Source: an uncultured bacterium
Lineage (GTDB): Bacteria; Bacillota; Clostridia; Lachnospirales; Lachnospiraceae
Direction: 5' to 3'
DNA length: 63,270 nucleotides
Assembly (NCBI GenBank): GCA_947383005.1
Contig: CANDBT010000027.1
Coordinates: 1-63,270, forward strand
Under the pieces are notes generated by a model. The model had not been told where the DNA came from, did no database searches, and saw only the letters and a list, made by a program, of their open reading frames with translations. Made by a program: the position numbers and the translations under genes. Shown here one piece after another: positions 4,297 to 31,176 of the stretch; within the stretch, counting starts at the first letter, position 1; the number at the start of each line of letters is the position of its first letter.

Positions 4297-4629
4297 ATGA
4301 GAAAAAGAAAAACTGTATGGGCTTACCTAGATGGAAAAAAACTGGTTGACGTGGTACAGGCAGCGCTTGACAACAACATGATGGTCGATGATTTGAAAAA
4401 GCAGCTCATCAGAAGGATTGATAATCCCTGCTGTCCGTTCTACGTTTCCGCAATTTTACAAATTGCCAGCAACCATCCAACTGCCAATAAATCTTACGTC
4501 GGATTCCTTACTATTCCTTACCATTTAAGATTATTTATCGGTCACATAAAAGTCACAAAACCCCGGGTTTTCCCAGAAAATACAAAAGTGTCGCTTAACT
4601 GTATGTTAAGCGACACTTTTTATGTCTAA
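4297..4629 (+). CDS. hypothetical protein, probably truncated at its 3' end
   Basis: A 110-residue frame whose first 50 residues (MRKRKTVWAYLDGKKLVDVV and on) look like a natural soluble protein with a basic start. The final 20 residues are encoded by the inverted repeat of the promoter switch (4584-4620), so the reading frame runs into unrelated DNA. I infer that the gene lost its original end when the polysaccharide locus and the element became adjacent. I do not recognise a family. A purine-rich stretch (GGGAGAAAGCGAGGGC) precedes the start. Confidence 0.35.
   Translation: MRKRKTVWAYLDGKKLVDVVQAALDNNMMVDDLKKQLIRRIDNPCCPFYVSAILQIASNHPTANKSYVGFLTIPYHLRLFIGHIKVTKPRVFPENTKVSLNCMLSDTFYV
4584..4620. 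terminator. bidirectional terminator hairpin that is also the upstream recombination repeat (locus 1)
   Basis: A 16-bp perfect stem, AAAAGTGTCGCTTAAC (4584-4599) with its complement (4605-4620), closes a five-base loop TGTAT. Read leftward it is followed by TTTTGTATTTT, and read rightward by TTTTTATG, so it should terminate in both directions. Its centre, 4592-4614, is the left inverted repeat of the promoter switch. Confidence 0.75.
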
Positions 4630-4771
4630 AATATCTGTATCATTCTTTTTTTCATAATCGAATCGATTATAACACCTTTTTTTATGAGCGTCAACCGCAT
4701 CCAATTTCCTTTTTTGGAAGGAAAGGCAAAAGAATTTCTTAATATGGCGTCGCTTAACATACAGTTAAGCG
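4592..4771. repeat. invertible promoter cassette of polysaccharide locus 1 (drawn OFF)
   Basis: A perfect 23-bp inverted repeat pair, 4592-4614 and 4749-4771, encloses a 134-bp segment (4615-4748). Each repeat is a dyad, CGCTTAAC-x5-GTTAAGCG plus AC, with centre TGTAT in the left copy and ATACA in the right, which are reverse complements. The segment carries a leftward consensus promoter (4666-4694). Inversion would place this promoter about 45 bases before the right repeat, facing the loaP-like gene at 4800. The same layout and segment length recur at 30462-30641. Inverted-repeat-flanked promoters are the known signature of recombinase-driven phase variation in gut bacteria; inversion itself is inferred. 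Confidence 0.85.
4666..4694 (-). promoter_or_regulatory. consensus sigma-A promoter in the invertible segment, pointing away from locus 1
   Basis: On the minus strand TTGACG (4689-4694) and TATAAT (4666-4671) are separated by 17 bases, the best promoter match in the upstream region. Overlapping and following the -10 is the palindrome ATAATCGAATCGATTAT (4657-4673), an 8-bp dyad around one base and a plausible operator. Transcription from here runs into the hairpin at 4584-4620 and should stop. Confidence 0.8.
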
Positions 4772-4799
4772 GCTGCTTTGGACAAAAAAACCAAAGGAG

Positions 4800-5303
4800 A
4801 TGGGGAAAATCTGGTACGTATTGAAATGTCCTAAGGGAAATGAGGCGGATTATGTGAAAGGATATCAGGAAACCATAAAGCCGGATAATGCGGATAGCCT
4901 GCAGGAAGTGATCCATTTTCAATATCAGCGCATGATCCGTTACAAAGGCCAATGGCATATGGAGGAGCGGGCAGTCCTGCCGGGGTATGTTTTTCTGTCC
5001 GGGGCAGAAAAAGCGATATTAAAGCGGCAGGCGTGGGAAGGAAAAGAAAACGGGGAGCTTATCGTGACCCCATGTGAGATTCCTTATCTGAAATGCCTGT
5101 GCACGGAAGGTAGTTTGGTGGAGATGTCCAAAGGGAGTATAAAGAGCGGGGTATTGGAAATAACCAGCGGGCCCCTTCGGGGGAGGGAACAGTTAATTAA
5201 AAAAATTGACCGGCATAAGAGGACAGCGGAGATAGAAATTCCTCTTGAAGGCCGGAACCGACGGGTTATCGTCGGGCTTGAGATATATGCGAAACAGATA
5301 TAA
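4800..5303 (+). CDS. LoaP-like NusG-family antiterminator (first of locus 1)
   Basis: A 167-residue NusG paralogue. The NGN domain opens with IWYVLKCPKGNEADYVKGYQ and contains the conserved LPGYVFLSG; the KOW domain contains SGPLRGREQLIKKIDRHKRTA. LoaP proteins bind RNA polymerase and a leader RNA hairpin and let the polymerase pass terminators in long polysaccharide operons. It is nearly the same as the protein at 30673-31176 (about 29 differences in 167 by eye). The annotated ATG abuts its ribosome site AAAGGAG with no spacer; WYV, the usual start in this family, begins three residues later after an ATC codon, so the true start is uncertain. Confidence 0.8.
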   Translation: MGKIWYVLKCPKGNEADYVKGYQETIKPDNADSLQEVIHFQYQRMIRYKGQWHMEERAVLPGYVFLSGAEKAILKRQAWEGKENGELIVTPCEIPYLKCLCTEGSLVEMSKGSIKSGVLEITSGPLRGREQLIKKIDRHKRTAEIEIPLEGRNRRVIVGLEIYAKQI

Positions 5304-5564
5304 ACAGGATTAAGCACCGGAGCGCTGAAGCATTGGCACAGGAACCGGGGCTTATGGTCATATTGGCAGGACGAGGCTACAGGTGAAGGCAAACGGAAAC
5401 TGTGGTATGGCGAGGCGCGCCCGGAAATGTGACGTGGGGATGGATAAAGGCAGGTTCTTGCTATTCTATTCCCGGCAGCGGTATGGATAAAAATGTATTT
5501 TAGGGAAGCGGTAATTTAATCAGCGTTTCCTTAAAAAGTATGCAAAAATACAGGAGGAACAGAA
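5304..5564 (+). promoter_or_regulatory. structured leader between the two LoaP-like genes
   Basis: This 261-base stretch has no gene. A stem at 5311-5320/5345-5354 (TAAGCACCGG with CCGGGGCTTA, one mismatch) and another at 5504-5510/5524-5530 (GGAAGCG with CGTTTCC) are visible. The start, GATTAAGCACCGG, is shared with the region after the LoaP-like gene of locus 2 (31181-31193). LoaP is known to need a leader RNA hairpin, so this is a candidate recognition region. The fold is by eye only. Confidence 0.35.
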
Positions 5565-6080
5565 ATGTGGTATGTTATCCAAACTTTAAATGGCGAAGAA
5601 GAAAAAACTGCAAATATGATCAAAAAGTGTATTTCCCCCTGTTATATCATGGATTGTTTTGTCCCTAAAAGAGAGCGGATAAAGAAATTTCATGGACGTT
5701 GGAACAAAATAGAAGAGATTCTGTTTCAAGGGTATGTGTTTGTCATATCGGAAGAACCGGAGAAAGTGTACCAAAGGCTGAGAGAGATTCCTAAACTTAC
5801 AAAACTATTAGGAAGAGAAGGAAATTATTTTGTGCCTTTAGACGACGAAGAAGAGAGGTTAGTCCGAAAGCTTGGAGATGAGAGGCACATGACGTCTTTA
5901 TCCCAGGTGGAAATAAAAGAGGGAAGATTGGCCAGGATTATTGGTGGCCCATTGAAGGATTATGTGGGAAATGTGGTGAAGGTAAATTTGCATAAAAGAG
6001 AAGCAGTGATAAGCGTGGAATTTATGGGCAGGATGACGGAACTGAAAATGGGTGTGGAGATGATGGAAAAGGAAACGTAA
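5565..6080 (+). CDS. loaP: transcription antiterminator LoaP
   Basis: A 171-residue NusG paralogue that starts exactly as LoaP proteins do, MWYVIQTLNGEEEKTANMI. It carries the NGN motif ILFQGYVFV (about residues 57-65) and a C-terminal KOW segment GGPLKDYVGNVVKVNLHKRE. It acts on the elongating RNA polymerase to suppress termination across the downstream gene cluster. AGGAGG at 5552-5557 gives a clear start. Its sequence differs strongly from the LoaP-like protein 260 bases upstream, so locus 1 has two non-redundant members of the family. The deacetylase gene follows after 44 bases. Confidence 0.88.
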   Translation: MWYVIQTLNGEEEKTANMIKKCISPCYIMDCFVPKRERIKKFHGRWNKIEEILFQGYVFVISEEPEKVYQRLREIPKLTKLLGREGNYFVPLDDEEERLVRKLGDERHMTSLSQVEIKEGRLARIIGGPLKDYVGNVVKVNLHKREAVISVEFMGRMTELKMGVEMMEKET

Positions 6081-6124
6081 TCAAGAGGAATATGTTCTGG
6101 TGAATGGTTAAGAAATGAGGGCTG

Positions 6125-6805
6125 ATGATGAGTTATTTGGTTGTAGTAGCACATCCGGACGACGAAGTGCTTGGAGCAGGAGGAACGATTTACACATTGA
6201 CAAAAAAAGGGAAAATCGTGGATGTATGTATTCTTTCTGGCATGGCGGAGGCAAGAGCGGACAGGCCATCGGATAATGAATTGGCAGAAGATACAGATCA
6301 GTGTCTGGCCTTACTGGGAATACACCAAAAGTTTTTAGGGGATTTTCCCAATATAAAGTTTAATACGGTTCCGCATCTGGAATTAGTCCAGTTTATTGAA
6401 AGAACGATTATTGCCTCGGGAGCAGATATTATCTTTACTCATCATCCGGCAGATTTAAATAATGATCATCTTCAAACCTCCCTGGCATGCCAGGCCGCGG
6501 TTAGATTGTTTCAAAGGAGGAATGACGTACAGCCATTAAAGGAATTACTGTATATGGAAGTGCCTTCCGCTACCGAATGGGGCCTGAATTGTTCCGCTAA
6601 TGAGTTCAGGCCGAATACATTTTTTGAAATAGGAAGGGATGGAATAGAAAAGAAGATTGAAGCATTGGCCTCTTACAGAGGAGTTATGCGGGAATATCCG
6701 CATCCCAGAAGCCGGGAAGCATTGCTGGGCCTGGCAGCTTATCGTGGCAGTCAATCTGGCAGCAATTATGCAGAAAGTTTTGAATCTGCGATGAGGAGGA
6801 TATAA
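6125..6805 (+). CDS. PIG-L/LmbE-family N-deacetylase
   Basis: A 226-residue zinc-dependent deacetylase. The metal motif AHPDDE lies at residues 9-14 and the second motif HHPADLNNDH at about 106-115, supplying the usual two histidines and an aspartate. The family removes N-acetyl groups from amino sugars and related compounds. The next gene is a formyltransferase, so I infer a deacetylate-then-formylate pair making an N-formyl amino sugar. The start may be ATG 6125 or 6128. Its end contains the AGGAGG that serves the next gene. Confidence 0.85.
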   Translation: MMSYLVVVAHPDDEVLGAGGTIYTLTKKGKIVDVCILSGMAEARADRPSDNELAEDTDQCLALLGIHQKFLGDFPNIKFNTVPHLELVQFIERTIIASGADIIFTHHPADLNNDHLQTSLACQAAVRLFQRRNDVQPLKELLYMEVPSATEWGLNCSANEFRPNTFFEIGRDGIEKKIEALASYRGVMREYPHPRSREALLGLAAYRGSQSGSNYAESFESAMRRI

Positions 6806-27020: not shown

Positions 27021-29612
27021 CTATTTCAACAGCAAAGACAGCACCTTGGGGCGCGCACCCTTTTCATATTTAAACTTTAAAGCATGCCTAATAATTTCAG
27101 GTAAATAATATCGATCATTATCTATTTTTAAATAACCTTCTTGTTTCATGATCTTTTCTTCTGCCTGAGTAAGATTAAACGTATCTGCTGCAAAAGGTAA
27201 AACCTTTTTTTCTTCCGATGTATGTTCTAACTTATCAAAAATTGGTCCCAATGCTTTAATTTCATCTCTTATTTCACCAATCTTATCATTAGAACATTCT
27301 GAAACCGCCCTTCGGATTTCTGTAGGCATCAAATATCTGTCATCATACACCGCTTTGCCTACATGCTCAGTTGCTTTCTCCAAAAATCTGATAATATCAC
27401 GCGCCTGTAACTGTCCATTAAAATCTGATAATGCTGCCAAAATCCATCTTGAAGAATTTGCCTCATTAGATGTTGGCTTTCCTAGTTTGACTCCCCATAA
27501 TCTATTAAGAGTCTCTTCAATTACTTCTCCCGAAGCAGCTTCAATTGGTATATTTCCCCGATAAAAATCTGGTACCGCCTGGCTGGTCAACCATGCTGCC
27601 AATCTTAATGCCTCGGTGTTAGACCATTGCAATTCAACGGTACGATATAAAGAGTAAAATTGTTCATAATTGATTGTTAATGAATCCCGTGCCATATCCT
27701 TCCTTAAAAATATCATAAAACCCACATTGTGATAAGTTATCTTTACTTCGTCAACCAAATCTCTGCATAGTGCCCTAATTGCATTTTTCTCGTTTTCCGA
27801 TGATATTGTATGTTCAAAAATCTCTTCCAGCCCATCTATTAAAAATACCATCTTTATGTGTCTATATTGCAATTCATCCTCAAGTTCTACCAATGAATGA
27901 TATGTTTTATCAAATGCACTTAAAATAACTTTTTTCCATATTTCTTTCCATTCTAAAATGTCATGGTCTTTTCTCACATGCATTAACAGCATATCCTTAC
28001 TATCCACATATACTGAATTACTAATTTTCCCTTTCATTCCACATTTGTTGTAAGCAGCTATAGCATTCTTTATAATCCCAGTAAATCCTCCCGCATTCCC
28101 TGAAGCCAAAAGAGGTACTGCCAGTATACATGTATCCCCGCTTAGACCTTTCGATACTGATCCATTTTTGCTCATACGTTCAACAAACTTTTCCCAATAT
28201 TGATCCCTCAATATTTCTCTATATAAGAATGTTTTACCAGATCCCTTCGCGCCCATAATCACTGTGTTGGGAATACTATTTCTATACTTTCTAATTAAAT
28301 TCTGAATTGATTCTGTCATCAATACTTCAAATGTTCCATTCCCTTCCGCCGTAATTTGGTTTGCCGCAAACTGGTGAATATTATTTATCACTTTGTTTCT
28401 TGATATATTTAAACTATCACGCCTTGTCTCTTTGGAAATCATATAATTATTTTTTACTATTTCACAAATATTTTTGTAAAAATCTCTGCCGCTCAAATTT
28501 TCCATTATTTTAGGCAGTGTTTCTAAGTGTACCAACTCACTCGCAAATGGGAGTTCTGTCACTATATTATCCGTTATAGAGTCATCGCTTTCAGCTATAT
28601 TGGGATGATAGACAGCAACTAGTTCACTGATAATTTCATCTGTATTCATTCCATTTTGCACCATAGTCAGTAAAACTTCGGGTATTTTGGAATTCTCATT
28701 CAAAGGCAGACCTTTATTCAACTGTTGTAAAAGTATTTCTGTTCCTTTAACAGACTGATAAGATGTTGATGTCACAATATATTTTTTTACTCTGGGATCA
28801 AAAAGTATCGGCGCTGAAAACTCGCTTAATCCTGCCCTCAAGTCAATCAACACCAACCCTGCATTTACTTTTTTCCCTAATTTTGATAAAACTTCCGCTA
28901 AAATATATTTTTTATTATAACTAATGGCAAGACTTTCAGGGCTTGCATACATATCAAGCAACTGTTCCACATATCTATATGTTGGTAAAACAATATGTTC
29001 TGCCCTTCCTCTTTCTGTTTCTATTTTAACAGTCAGTTCCGATACTTTGTCTGCAATCAATTCAATAATCTCATCCGCATTATCCTTCTCCTGCGTAACC
29101 TCTAAAAGATCCAAAAAACTAAATGCTGTTTCCTCTTGATTCGTAGTAAGCCACGTTATTCCCGGCGCCTCAATATCTGCATCAATGACAAGAAGTTTTC
29201 GGAAATTCTCTACATTGTTTAGCTCAGACCATGCTTTAACAAAAGCCAATAAAGATAATGTGCGTCCTACCCCTCCCTTGTACGAATGAAAAGCAAGGAC
29301 AGGTACTCCCGGTAATTCCTTTTCTATTAGTTCATTAAAATACGCTGTCTTCTGGTACAAAACATTCCTAAAAAGCGGTGTGGTTACACTATCGTTCTCC
29401 TCATTTTGATCTCTTTCAAAAGCCACATCTAAATATTCATCCGATAAATCCAGCAATATCTTCTTGCCATCATATTTTTTTCCCCAAATATCCTTTAATA
29501 TTTTTTGGGCAGATGTCTCTGCCTGTCCTTCTTTTAAATGAATAATTACTTCATCGGTATATATCTCAGTATCGGAAATCACTCCCCCCCACTTAGCCTT
29601 ATTTAGCAACAA
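27021..29612 (-). CDS. KGGVGR-motif double ATPase (ParA-like plus STAND-like), probable defence or conflict protein
   Basis: An 863-residue protein. A novel N-terminal domain (1-100) precedes a ParA/MinD-like ATPase with the variant P-loop KGGVGRT at 112-118 and LLVIDADIEAPG at 140-151. A second P-loop ATPase follows, with Walker A GAKGSGKT at 454-461 and Walker B MVFLIDGLEEI at about 588-598, then a helical C-terminus (about 660-863) that may sense a signal or act as effector. KGGVGR ATPases are known from predicted NTP-dependent conflict systems. The start is TTG 29612 after a purine-rich run; codons 8-10 contain seven consecutive G. It follows the HEPN-like gene after 32 bases. Confidence 0.75.
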   Translation of the reverse strand: MLLNKAKWGGVISDTEIYTDEVIIHLKEGQAETSAQKILKDIWGKKYDGKKILLDLSDEYLDVAFERDQNEENDSVTTPLFRNVLYQKTAYFNELIEKELPGVPVLAFHSYKGGVGRTLSLLAFVKAWSELNNVENFRKLLVIDADIEAPGITWLTTNQEETAFSFLDLLEVTQEKDNADEIIELIADKVSELTVKIETERGRAEHIVLPTYRYVEQLLDMYASPESLAISYNKKYILAEVLSKLGKKVNAGLVLIDLRAGLSEFSAPILFDPRVKKYIVTSTSYQSVKGTEILLQQLNKGLPLNENSKIPEVLLTMVQNGMNTDEIISELVAVYHPNIAESDDSITDNIVTELPFASELVHLETLPKIMENLSGRDFYKNICEIVKNNYMISKETRRDSLNISRNKVINNIHQFAANQITAEGNGTFEVLMTESIQNLIRKYRNSIPNTVIMGAKGSGKTFLYREILRDQYWEKFVERMSKNGSVSKGLSGDTCILAVPLLASGNAGGFTGIIKNAIAAYNKCGMKGKISNSVYVDSKDMLLMHVRKDHDILEWKEIWKKVILSAFDKTYHSLVELEDELQYRHIKMVFLIDGLEEIFEHTISSENEKNAIRALCRDLVDEVKITYHNVGFMIFLRKDMARDSLTINYEQFYSLYRTVELQWSNTEALRLAAWLTSQAVPDFYRGNIPIEAASGEVIEETLNRLWGVKLGKPTSNEANSSRWILAALSDFNGQLQARDIIRFLEKATEHVGKAVYDDRYLMPTEIRRAVSECSNDKIGEIRDEIKALGPIFDKLEHTSEEKKVLPFAADTFNLTQAEEKIMKQEGYLKIDNDRYYLPEIIRHALKFKYEKGARPKVLSLLLK

Positions 29613-30446: not shown

Positions 30447-30497
30447 AAAATACAAAAGTGTCGCTTAACTGCGTGTTAAGCGACACTTTTGTATTTT
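30447..30497. terminator. bidirectional terminator hairpin that is also the upstream recombination repeat (locus 2)
   Basis: A perfect 23-bp stem from AAAATACAAAAGTG through CGCTTAAC (30447-30469) with its complement (30475-30497) around the five-base loop TGCGT. It is longer than the locus 1 counterpart. The ends TTTTGTATTTT in both directions make it a strong terminator for leftward transcripts from the switch promoter and for rightward read-through. Confidence 0.75.
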
Positions 30498-30641
30498 AAA
30501 ACACCTAAAAAATGCTAGTTTTCGTAATCGAATCGATTATAACACCTTTTTTTAGCAGCGTCAACCGCATCCAATTTCCTTTTTTAGCAGGAAATGCAAA
30601 AGAATTTCTTAATATACTGTCGCTTAACACGCAGTTAAGCG
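30462..30641. repeat. invertible promoter cassette of polysaccharide locus 2 (drawn OFF)
   Basis: Perfect 23-bp inverted repeats at 30462-30484 and 30619-30641 enclose 134 bp (30485-30618), the same length as in locus 1. Arms are the same as in locus 1 (CGCTTAAC and GTTAAGCG) but the centre is TGCGT on the left and its complement ACGCA on the right. The internal segment is homologous to the locus 1 segment and lies in the same orientation, with its promoter (30536-30564) pointing left. That the two halves of each repeat pair co-vary within a locus is strong evidence that the repeats recombine with each other. The recombinase is not in this window. Confidence 0.85.
30536..30564 (-). promoter_or_regulatory. 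consensus sigma-A promoter in the invertible segment, pointing away from locus 2
   Basis: Minus-strand TTGACG (30559-30564), 17-base spacer, TATAAT (30536-30541). The palindrome around TAATCGAATCGATTA overlaps the -10 and probable start point exactly as in locus 1. Confidence 0.8.
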
Positions 30642-30672
30642 GTTGCTTTCAGGCGGAAAACCAAAGCAGGGG

Positions 30673-31176
30673 GTGGGGAAAATCTGGTACGTGTTGAAAT
30701 GCTCCCAAGGAAATGAGGCGGATTATGTAAAAGGATATCAGGAGACCATAAAGCCGGACAGCGCGGACAGCCTGCAGGAAGTGATCCATTTCCGGTATCA
30801 GCGCATGATCCGTTACAAGGGTAGGTGGCATTTGGAGGAACGGGCAGTCCTGCCGGGGTATATTTTCCTGTCTGGGACAGAAAAAGCGATATTAAAGCGG
30901 CAGGTATGGGAAAGAAAAGAAAGCGGGGATATTAGCATGGCTCCGTGTGAGCCGCCTTATCTGAAATACCTGTGTACGAAAGGCAATTTGGTAGGGATGT
31001 CCAGAGGAAACATTAAAAACGGGATATTGGAAATAACCAGCGGACCCCTCCGGGGGAGGGAGCAGTTGGTGAAAAAAATTGACCGGCATAAGAGGACGGC
31101 GGAGATAGAAATCCCTCTTGAAGGCCGGAACCGACGAGTTACCGTTGGGCTTGAGATATACGAGAAACAGATATAA
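30673..31176 (+). CDS. LoaP-like NusG-family antiterminator of locus 2
   Basis: A 167-residue NusG paralogue, a close copy of the protein at 4800-5303 (about 29 differences by eye). NGN motifs IWYVLKCSQGNEADYV and VLPGYIFLSG and the KOW segment SGPLRGREQLVKKIDRHKRT are kept; the variable central part (about residues 78-115) may carry specificity. The start homologous to that of locus 1 is a GTG directly after AGCAGGGG; an upstream TTG at 30643 would add ten residues from the repeat. It would be transcribed first when the switch is ON and then help the polymerase through the 27-kb operon. Confidence 0.8.
   Translation: MGKIWYVLKCSQGNEADYVKGYQETIKPDSADSLQEVIHFRYQRMIRYKGRWHLEERAVLPGYIFLSGTEKAILKRQVWERKESGDISMAPCEPPYLKYLCTKGNLVGMSRGNIKNGILEITSGPLRGREQLVKKIDRHKRTAEIEIPLEGRNRRVTVGLEIYEKQI

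Follow-up and report, generated by a model that had tools for sequence, protein, structure and literature searches.

Polysaccharide locus 1 begins behind a pair of short inverted repeats with a promoter between them, which raises the question of whether this promoter can be inverted so as to turn the locus on and off, and, if so, which enzyme would act on it and how the signal would reach the end of a long operon. The sequence analysed (the window; 63,270 bp, contig CANDBT010000027.1 of assembly GCA_947383005.1) is contig C27 of a 4.99 Mb Lachnospiraceae genome, referred to here as G000. An earlier note on the window had described the arrangement as a promoter switch, invertible and drawn OFF, that precedes a LoaP-type regulator.

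A promoter enclosed by inverted sites precedes locus 1

The note had reported perfect 23 bp inverted repeats (4592–4614 and 4749–4771) separated by 134 bp, and these were recovered both from the sequence and in a repeat scan. The repeats were found to sit inside larger 25 bp sites at 4590–4614 and 4749–4773, in which 24 of 25 positions pair. The plan of the site is GTCGCTTAA-N7-TTAAGCGAC, and each arm is palindromic by itself, consisting of 9 bp half-sites around an asymmetric 7 bp core. The operon-distal site (4590–4614, plus strand; sequence, repeat and pattern scans) reads GTCGCTTAA-CTGTATG-TTAAGCGAC, and the operon-proximal site (4749–4773, minus strand; repeat and pattern scans) carries the same core inverted, with one mismatch in the outer arm.

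The predicted invertible interior (4615–4748, 134 bp, with no strand assigned; repeat scan and listing of pairs) contains the TTGACG-N17-TATAAT promoter that had been described as directed away from the operon. A promoter scan placed it on the minus strand, running from 4694 to 4666, and it therefore points away from the operon, the orientation termed OFF. It matches 11 of 12 consensus bases and has a TG before the -10 element. The remark that the operon lacks another strong upstream promoter also held, as no plus-strand promoter-like site of at least 9/12 was present in 4560–6200. The region 4590–4773 thus has the form of an inverton, a promoter enclosed by inverted repeats. With up to three mismatches allowed, the 25 bp site pattern occurs 8 times in the window, whereas shuffled sequences would yield 0.03 matches. 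A gene for a DDE transposase (PF01609; 2199–4010, plus strand) lies just upstream of locus 1.

The first gene behind the switch, N1 (4800–5303, plus strand; profile search), encodes a LoaP/NusG-like protein that falls below the LoaP cut-off, and the gene N2 (5565–6080, plus strand; profile search) encodes a LoaP antiterminator. They are followed by the locus 1 polysaccharide operon (6125–26697, plus strand; ORF list and family searches), which includes 19 main same-strand ORFs, and those searched include a sugar transferase, glycosyltransferases, an EpsG-type polymerase, a pyruvyl transferase and a flippase. Against the LoaP profile NF033641 (cut-off 125), N2 of the window scored 153.6 and N2 from contig C4 scored 143.1, whereas three N1 proteins scored 99.2–107.8. 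Two NusG-like genes thus stand behind the switch where the earlier note had a single LoaP-type regulator; N1, which adjoins the switch, is below the cut-off and N2 is above it. The first gene was not UpxY, as N1 had no UpxY match, and N2 reached 70.5 against a UpxY cut-off of 100.

Further switches in genome G000

The whole 5 Mb genome was searched with up to three mismatches, and 21 matches per strand were found, compared with one for the reversed pattern. Seven pairs enclose TTGAC(A/G)-N17-TATAAT, two in C27, two in C4 and one each in C11, C16 and C74. All seven have N1 on one side and the promoter directed away from N1, and are thus OFF as assembled. The promoter switch proposed for locus 1 is one of at least seven with a promoter in G000.

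A switch of the same type also precedes the second polysaccharide locus of the window (30460–30643) and five more G000 loci. In the second switch, pattern scans identified a distal site with core CTGCGTG (30460–30484, plus strand) and a proximal site (30619–30643, minus strand), and the pair listing gave a TTGACG-N17-TATAAT promoter, again OFF (30536–30564, minus strand). The N1 of locus 2 (30673–31176, plus strand; sequence and profile search) is 83% identical to that of locus 1, and neither a separate N2 match nor the R1 RNA described below was found after it. Polysaccharide genes behind the switches were identified by family search for loci 1 and 2 of the window and by eye for C11 and one of the two C4 loci. 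G000 thus has several polysaccharide loci, each with a predicted invertible promoter, and N1 is downstream of all seven promoter switches. An 863 aa protein encoded between the two polysaccharide loci of the window (27021–29612, minus strand) gave a weak nSTAND1 match, below cut-off.

Other sites in G000 differ in what they enclose. The pair in C55 (L029:7471–7675, equivalent to G000:C55:10470–10674) has a matching core and an unrelated AT-rich interior that lacks a strong promoter, and is flanked by genes that by eye are transporter-like and glycosyltransferase-like. In C17 (L030:7389–8927, equivalent to G000:C17:55388–56926) the sites are 1.5 kb apart and enclose a 290 aa ORF, which by eye resembles an Rpn-type nuclease and had no NCBIfam match. 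A TTGATT-N17-TATAAT promoter near the left end of the C17 pair is directed away from the gene for a secreted-looking repeat protein, which begins 53 bp past the right site, and this pair is possibly a large gene-bearing switch. A lone site with one mismatch (L031:7927–7951; G000:C5:142926), for which no partner was found, is a possible remnant of a lost switch.

Cores match within pairs and vary between loci

Pairs of sites were picked using half-sites and distance only, which gave 42 distinct pairs in 10 genomes. The 7 bp core was identical at 7/7 bases, in inverted orientation, in 42 of 42 pairs. When the cores were shuffled among the pairs, the mean was 1.6 full matches and the maximum 8 in 10,000 shuffles. 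There were 25 different cores among the 42 pairs, and columns 8–20 of the 25 in the site were free of any within-pair mismatch. This count took loci L021–L033 and L088–L131, with L073–L087 left out as duplicates of these genomes. Single sites in switch genomes that have no partner in the stretch examined (L094, L099, L100, L120, L026 and L031) were left out of the pair counts. The C55 pair, which has no promoter, was counted among the 42 pairs and the 44 considered below and left out of the orientation count, and the C17 pair was counted in neither. At L273 (G044:C71, first 800 bases), both sites have a 6 bp core instead of a 7 bp core, and the cores still match.

As the core is asymmetric and different at most loci, recombination within a pair would invert the promoter, and exchange between unlike cores would be disfavoured. 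Contigs C16 and C74 of G000 have the same core, and the code therefore does not separate all loci. Tyrosine recombinases require a homologous overlap region, whereas serine recombinases need a match of only 2 bp, and the 7/7 core match within pairs thus fits strand exchange of the tyrosine type.

Orientation of related switches

With L251 and L273 added to the 42, there were 44 distinct pairs. Orientation was resolvable for 38, namely those whose interior has a strong promoter (judged by its highest-scoring candidate) and that have a NusG-like gene no more than 1 kb away, and not for the other six. Of the 38, 35 were OFF and three (L114, L126 and L251) were ON. Two cut-off contigs also look ON, one having the whole promoter directed towards N1 (L272) and the other being judged from its last 54 bases only, which resemble the distal end of other interiors (L270). 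Both orientations are therefore found among related switches. The ON interiors aligned better to their OFF relatives when flipped in 8 of 9 comparisons; L114 did so with 6/6 relatives (for example 159/186 bases flipped versus 116/186 unflipped against L110), and L126 with 2/3, with a tie at L131.

Among 23 locus ends that are contig ends, five breaks fall within 60 bp beyond a site, and in two of these five (C34/C74 of G000 and a pair in G044) the broken contig and a sister contig have an overlap of 55 bp. Contig C34 breaks 5 bp past the site, and the ON and OFF forms of the C74 switch share 5 bp there. In the G044 pair the break is 2 bp past the site, and the predicted ON/OFF share is also 2 bp. 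The remaining three breaks are 32, 32 and 54 bp beyond a site and fit the branch points calculated for assembler word lengths of 55 and 77. L272 starts within its distal site, and the start is the first position beyond which the proximal site of L272 agrees with the consensus. Breaks at predicted branch points suggest that the orientation was mixed, though repeats can cause breaks too.

The occurrence of related switches in both orientations, the matching of cores in all pairs and the co-occurring recombinase described below together support the earlier description of an invertible promoter drawn OFF, and we infer that the switch at 4590–4773 itself flips.

A candidate recombinase encoded elsewhere in the genome

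A 326 aa tyrosine recombinase, with matches to PF00589 (86.8 bits) and PF14659, is encoded in contig C4 (G000:C4:22304–23281), 3 kb upstream of one of the C4 switches. In a search of 33 genomes, homologues with 58–69% identity (E 8e-115 or better) were found in 10 of the 10 switch genomes. In the other 23 genomes, two of which carry one chance site each, the best of the matches listed had an E value of 1.4e-48 at 35% identity, and the matches listed included a few short C-terminal stretches at 39–45%. Residues R153, K213, H274, R277, H300 and Y310, the R-K-H-R-H-Y catalytic set, are invariant in 14 of 14 homologues. By sequence, the solved structures closest to it include those of XerC/XerA-like enzymes and of an Int protein (6emy), the Tn1549 integrase.

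A second paralogue is present in four genomes, including G000, where it is located beside polysaccharide-like genes (C2:7656–8564). By eye, the recombinase gene is often among polysaccharide-like genes and several times adjoins a gene for a chain-length-regulator-like protein. Thirteen of the 14 recombinase neighbourhoods fetched contain no site. The switches are probably served in trans by a tyrosine recombinase, and the C4 protein and its C2 paralogue are the candidates for the enzyme acting on the sites. As the co-occurrence of recombinase and sites comes from 10 related genomes, ancestry alone could link the two.

Inversion by some other enzyme, such as a serine recombinase or an Xer-like protein, or by homologous recombination, was also considered, as G000 includes 24 serine-recombinase domain matches and 29 of the PF00589 type. 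Among the matches fetched for comparison (11 of the 12 PF00589 matches of G013 and 19 of the 22 of G041), only L034, L042 and L043 of the 29 have close counterparts in both of these genomes. L034, which by its look we take to be a housekeeping Xer-like protein, is thus also conserved in G013 and G041, and the L042/L043 family tracks the presence of sites. The matched asymmetric 7 bp core fits an exchange of the tyrosine type, whereas a 2 bp match would suffice for a serine enzyme, and homologous recombination would usually call for repeats longer than 25 bp. A different enzyme is thus unlikely, and a tyrosine recombinase acting in trans is preferred.

A hairpin at the site faced by the OFF promoter

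The distal arm and its flanks form a hairpin with a 16 bp stem (4584–4620, minus strand; repeat and terminator scans), which the promoter faces when OFF and in which the scan saw a terminator-like signal for the minus strand but none for the plus strand. Among the 35 OFF switches, the longer stem extension is at the site that the promoter faces in 32, at the other site in one and at neither in two, and the median extension is 7 at the faced site versus 0 at the other. Of the ON switches, L114 and L126 conform to the terminator rule, with the extension on the far side, whereas L251 breaks it with a 6 bp extension on the side of the operon, and the C16 switch of G000 itself has no stem extension on either side. 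With the longer hairpin at the faced site, the predicted structures indicate that in the OFF state the promoter is directed away from the operon and its transcript is probably halted as well.

The outward promoter is near-consensus and is found in 41 of the 42 pairs, as might be expected if the switch had two outputs and the OFF promoter drove something useful on the other side. However, a longer stem at the faced site in 32/35 OFF switches speaks against a useful outward transcript, and in the window the upstream neighbouring ORF (4297–4629) is on the opposite strand, making a second output very improbable. About as improbable is that the arms are fixed palindromes, acting as terminators or regulator-binding sites around a short outward transcript with no inversion, as this would account for the palindromic form of each arm, the terminator-like distal arm and the OFF state of all seven G000 promoter switches but leaves unexplained why cores match in 42/42 pairs yet vary between loci, why natural ON forms exist and why the recombinase co-occurs.

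Distribution of the sites

When one genome per species was scanned with the exact pattern, across 84,980 species, 44 stretches were returned. The carriers were Hungatella MAGs, [Clostridium] symbiosum, C. transplantifaecale, bacterium 1XD21-70, and entries named 'Clostridiaceae bacterium' and 'uncultured bacterium'; in the NCBI classification C. transplantifaecale is in the Clostridia and bacterium 1XD21-70 is unclassified. Six single sites (L090, L091, L093, L096, L108 and L124) lacked both a partner site and a NusG-like neighbour and were taken as chance matches. No exact site was found in the viral collection, and the system is therefore not an obvious phage cargo.

In the genus of the window, sites with at most one mismatch were present in 3 of the 24 genomes searched, its own included, and among 397 genomes sampled evenly from the family exact sites were found in its own genome only. 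Three genomes of the family sample carry a 45% homologue of the recombinase and no exact site. A LoaP profile search of these three gave no match in two and one match below the cut-off in the third (L239). This protein was rejected as a LoaP; its gene adjoins a secE-like gene (by eye), and it is probably NusG itself.

A conserved structured RNA between N1 and LoaP

A covariance model, R1, identified a conserved structured RNA of about 120 nt with several helices between N1 and the LoaP gene (5302–5425, plus strand). In an alignment of 21 sequences, 14 of 29 pairs showed changes on both sides that keep the pairing, and 95.4% of cells pair, compared with at most 43.8% when the partners were slid. 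On each of five measures, all 500 shuffles, which ignore relatedness, stayed short of the observed value. R1 was not matched by any of the 4227 Rfam models at gathering or relaxed thresholds, using the window and five other loci.

The model matched in 9 of the 10 switch genomes (not G046) and in 0 of the 23 others. Over the 42 switch loci, R1 follows 19 of 19 switches that have an N2 match of at least 55% identity and 2 of the 23 others, a group in which contig ends truncate some loci. Thirty genome matches were examined as loci, and of these 28 have an N2-like gene downstream and 27 have a site within 1.5 kb. A 28th match near sites (L267) is at the 6 bp core sites of the same switch as L273. 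In G041 and G042, R1 precedes an N2-like gene with no site within 1.5 kb. Five weak matches came from three other family members; two of these, both in G088 and with weaker scores, are directly before an N2-like gene; of the other three, one lies about 1.4 kb from an N2-like stretch and two are not accompanied by any. As R1 precedes N2-like genes away from sites in G041, G042 and G088, the idea that it is part of the inverton was dropped. We take R1 to be a putative LoaP leader element.

Proposed mechanism

The explanation preferred here, to which we assign a probability of about 0.88, is that separate polysaccharide loci are phase-varied by a set of invertible promoters, of which 4590–4773 would be one. 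A tyrosine recombinase encoded elsewhere (in C4, with a paralogue in C2) would bind the palindromic 9 bp half-sites and exchange strands across the 7 bp core, which acts as a code for the locus, and exchange within a pair would invert the promoter. In the OFF state the promoter would fire away from the operon into the hairpin formed by the distal site and its flanks, where transcription may terminate. In the ON state it would read through the proximal site, which mostly lacks a stem extension, into N1, the RNA, the LoaP gene and then the genes for the capsule. By antitermination LoaP, which may be loaded at the R1 RNA, would carry RNA polymerase through the long operon, and inversion would in this way switch the capsule.

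Relationship to known systems

Phase variation of multiple capsule loci is best known from Bacteroides. In B. fragilis and B. thetaiotaomicron, the invertible promoters of capsule loci occur with UpxY antiterminators, and those of B. fragilis are inverted by Mpi, which belongs to the serine recombinases. The parallel to Bacteroides drawn in the earlier note stands in that there are several capsule loci per genome, each with a small invertible promoter and a NusG-type antiterminator gene near its start, but it does not extend to a UpxY first gene. The system described here also differs in its Clostridia host, its locus-specific 7 bp cores, its candidate recombinase of the tyrosine rather than the serine type, its LoaP-type genes, which are often in tandem with a structured RNA between them, and the longer hairpin at the distal site.

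In the Clostridia, RecV of Clostridioides difficile is a recombinase of the tyrosine type with several sites. It is described as inverting a switch, with flagella under control (PMC8890394), and the switches described here would likewise be inverted by a recombinase in a clostridial host. However, it is flagella that are controlled there, and the likeness is one of description, not of sites or protein. In the hCom2 community, inverton group 139 and invertase group 35 tie Clostridia invertons to a family of tyrosine-type recombinases, and UpxY is also reported near invertons (PMC11892184). The link between Clostridia invertons and a tyrosine-type recombinase is common to both, but in group 139 the invertase is described as near nearly all invertons, whereas here 13/14 recombinase neighbourhoods are without a site. 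The switches found here may belong to group 139 or group 125, a comparison made by description and not by site motif (PMC11892184).

The cps1 capsule locus of Akkermansia muciniphila is described as phase-varied by an inverton, with reads aligning in both orientations (PMC13343947). The invertible element in front of a capsule locus is common to both systems, but A. muciniphila belongs to another phylum, the inverton is that of cps1, and antitermination and a recombinase are unmentioned in the main text of that report. Capsule phase variation by invertible promoters is thus already known, from Bacteroides (see above) and from Akkermansia (PMC13343947). In Eggerthella lenta, inversions of about 2 Mb that involve capsule clusters are described at a 16 bp repeat with no adjacent recombinase gene (preprint PMC13174815). 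Those inversions move capsule loci relative to loaP, whereas a small promoter segment is involved here. LoaP of B. velezensis is described as needing a small UNCG hairpin in the dfn leader (PMC12691694), and the combination of a LoaP antiterminator with an RNA element upstream of a long operon is similar, although the putative LoaP element here is a multi-helix RNA of about 120 nt. Among the literature matches listed there was no report of capsule promoter inversion with LoaP in the Clostridia.

It is tentatively proposed, at somewhat less than even odds, that this is a three-layer capsule switch of the Clostridia, combining one trans-acting tyrosine recombinase family that flips many promoters, mostly told apart by 7 bp codes, a terminator derived in part from the site in the OFF state, and a LoaP loaded by a new class of structured RNA and acting over a 20 kb operon. 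If this reading is true, only the flipped-on transcript would be carried through the 20 kb operon. The position of R1 between two NusG-like genes makes it a concrete candidate for the recruitment of LoaP to polysaccharide operons, and with the 7 bp locus codes it could be tested cleanly how a single recombinase may serve many switches with little mixing. A differently built version of capsule phase variation in the Clostridia would open a further large bacterial group to tests of surface switching and of its meaning for phages and immunity.
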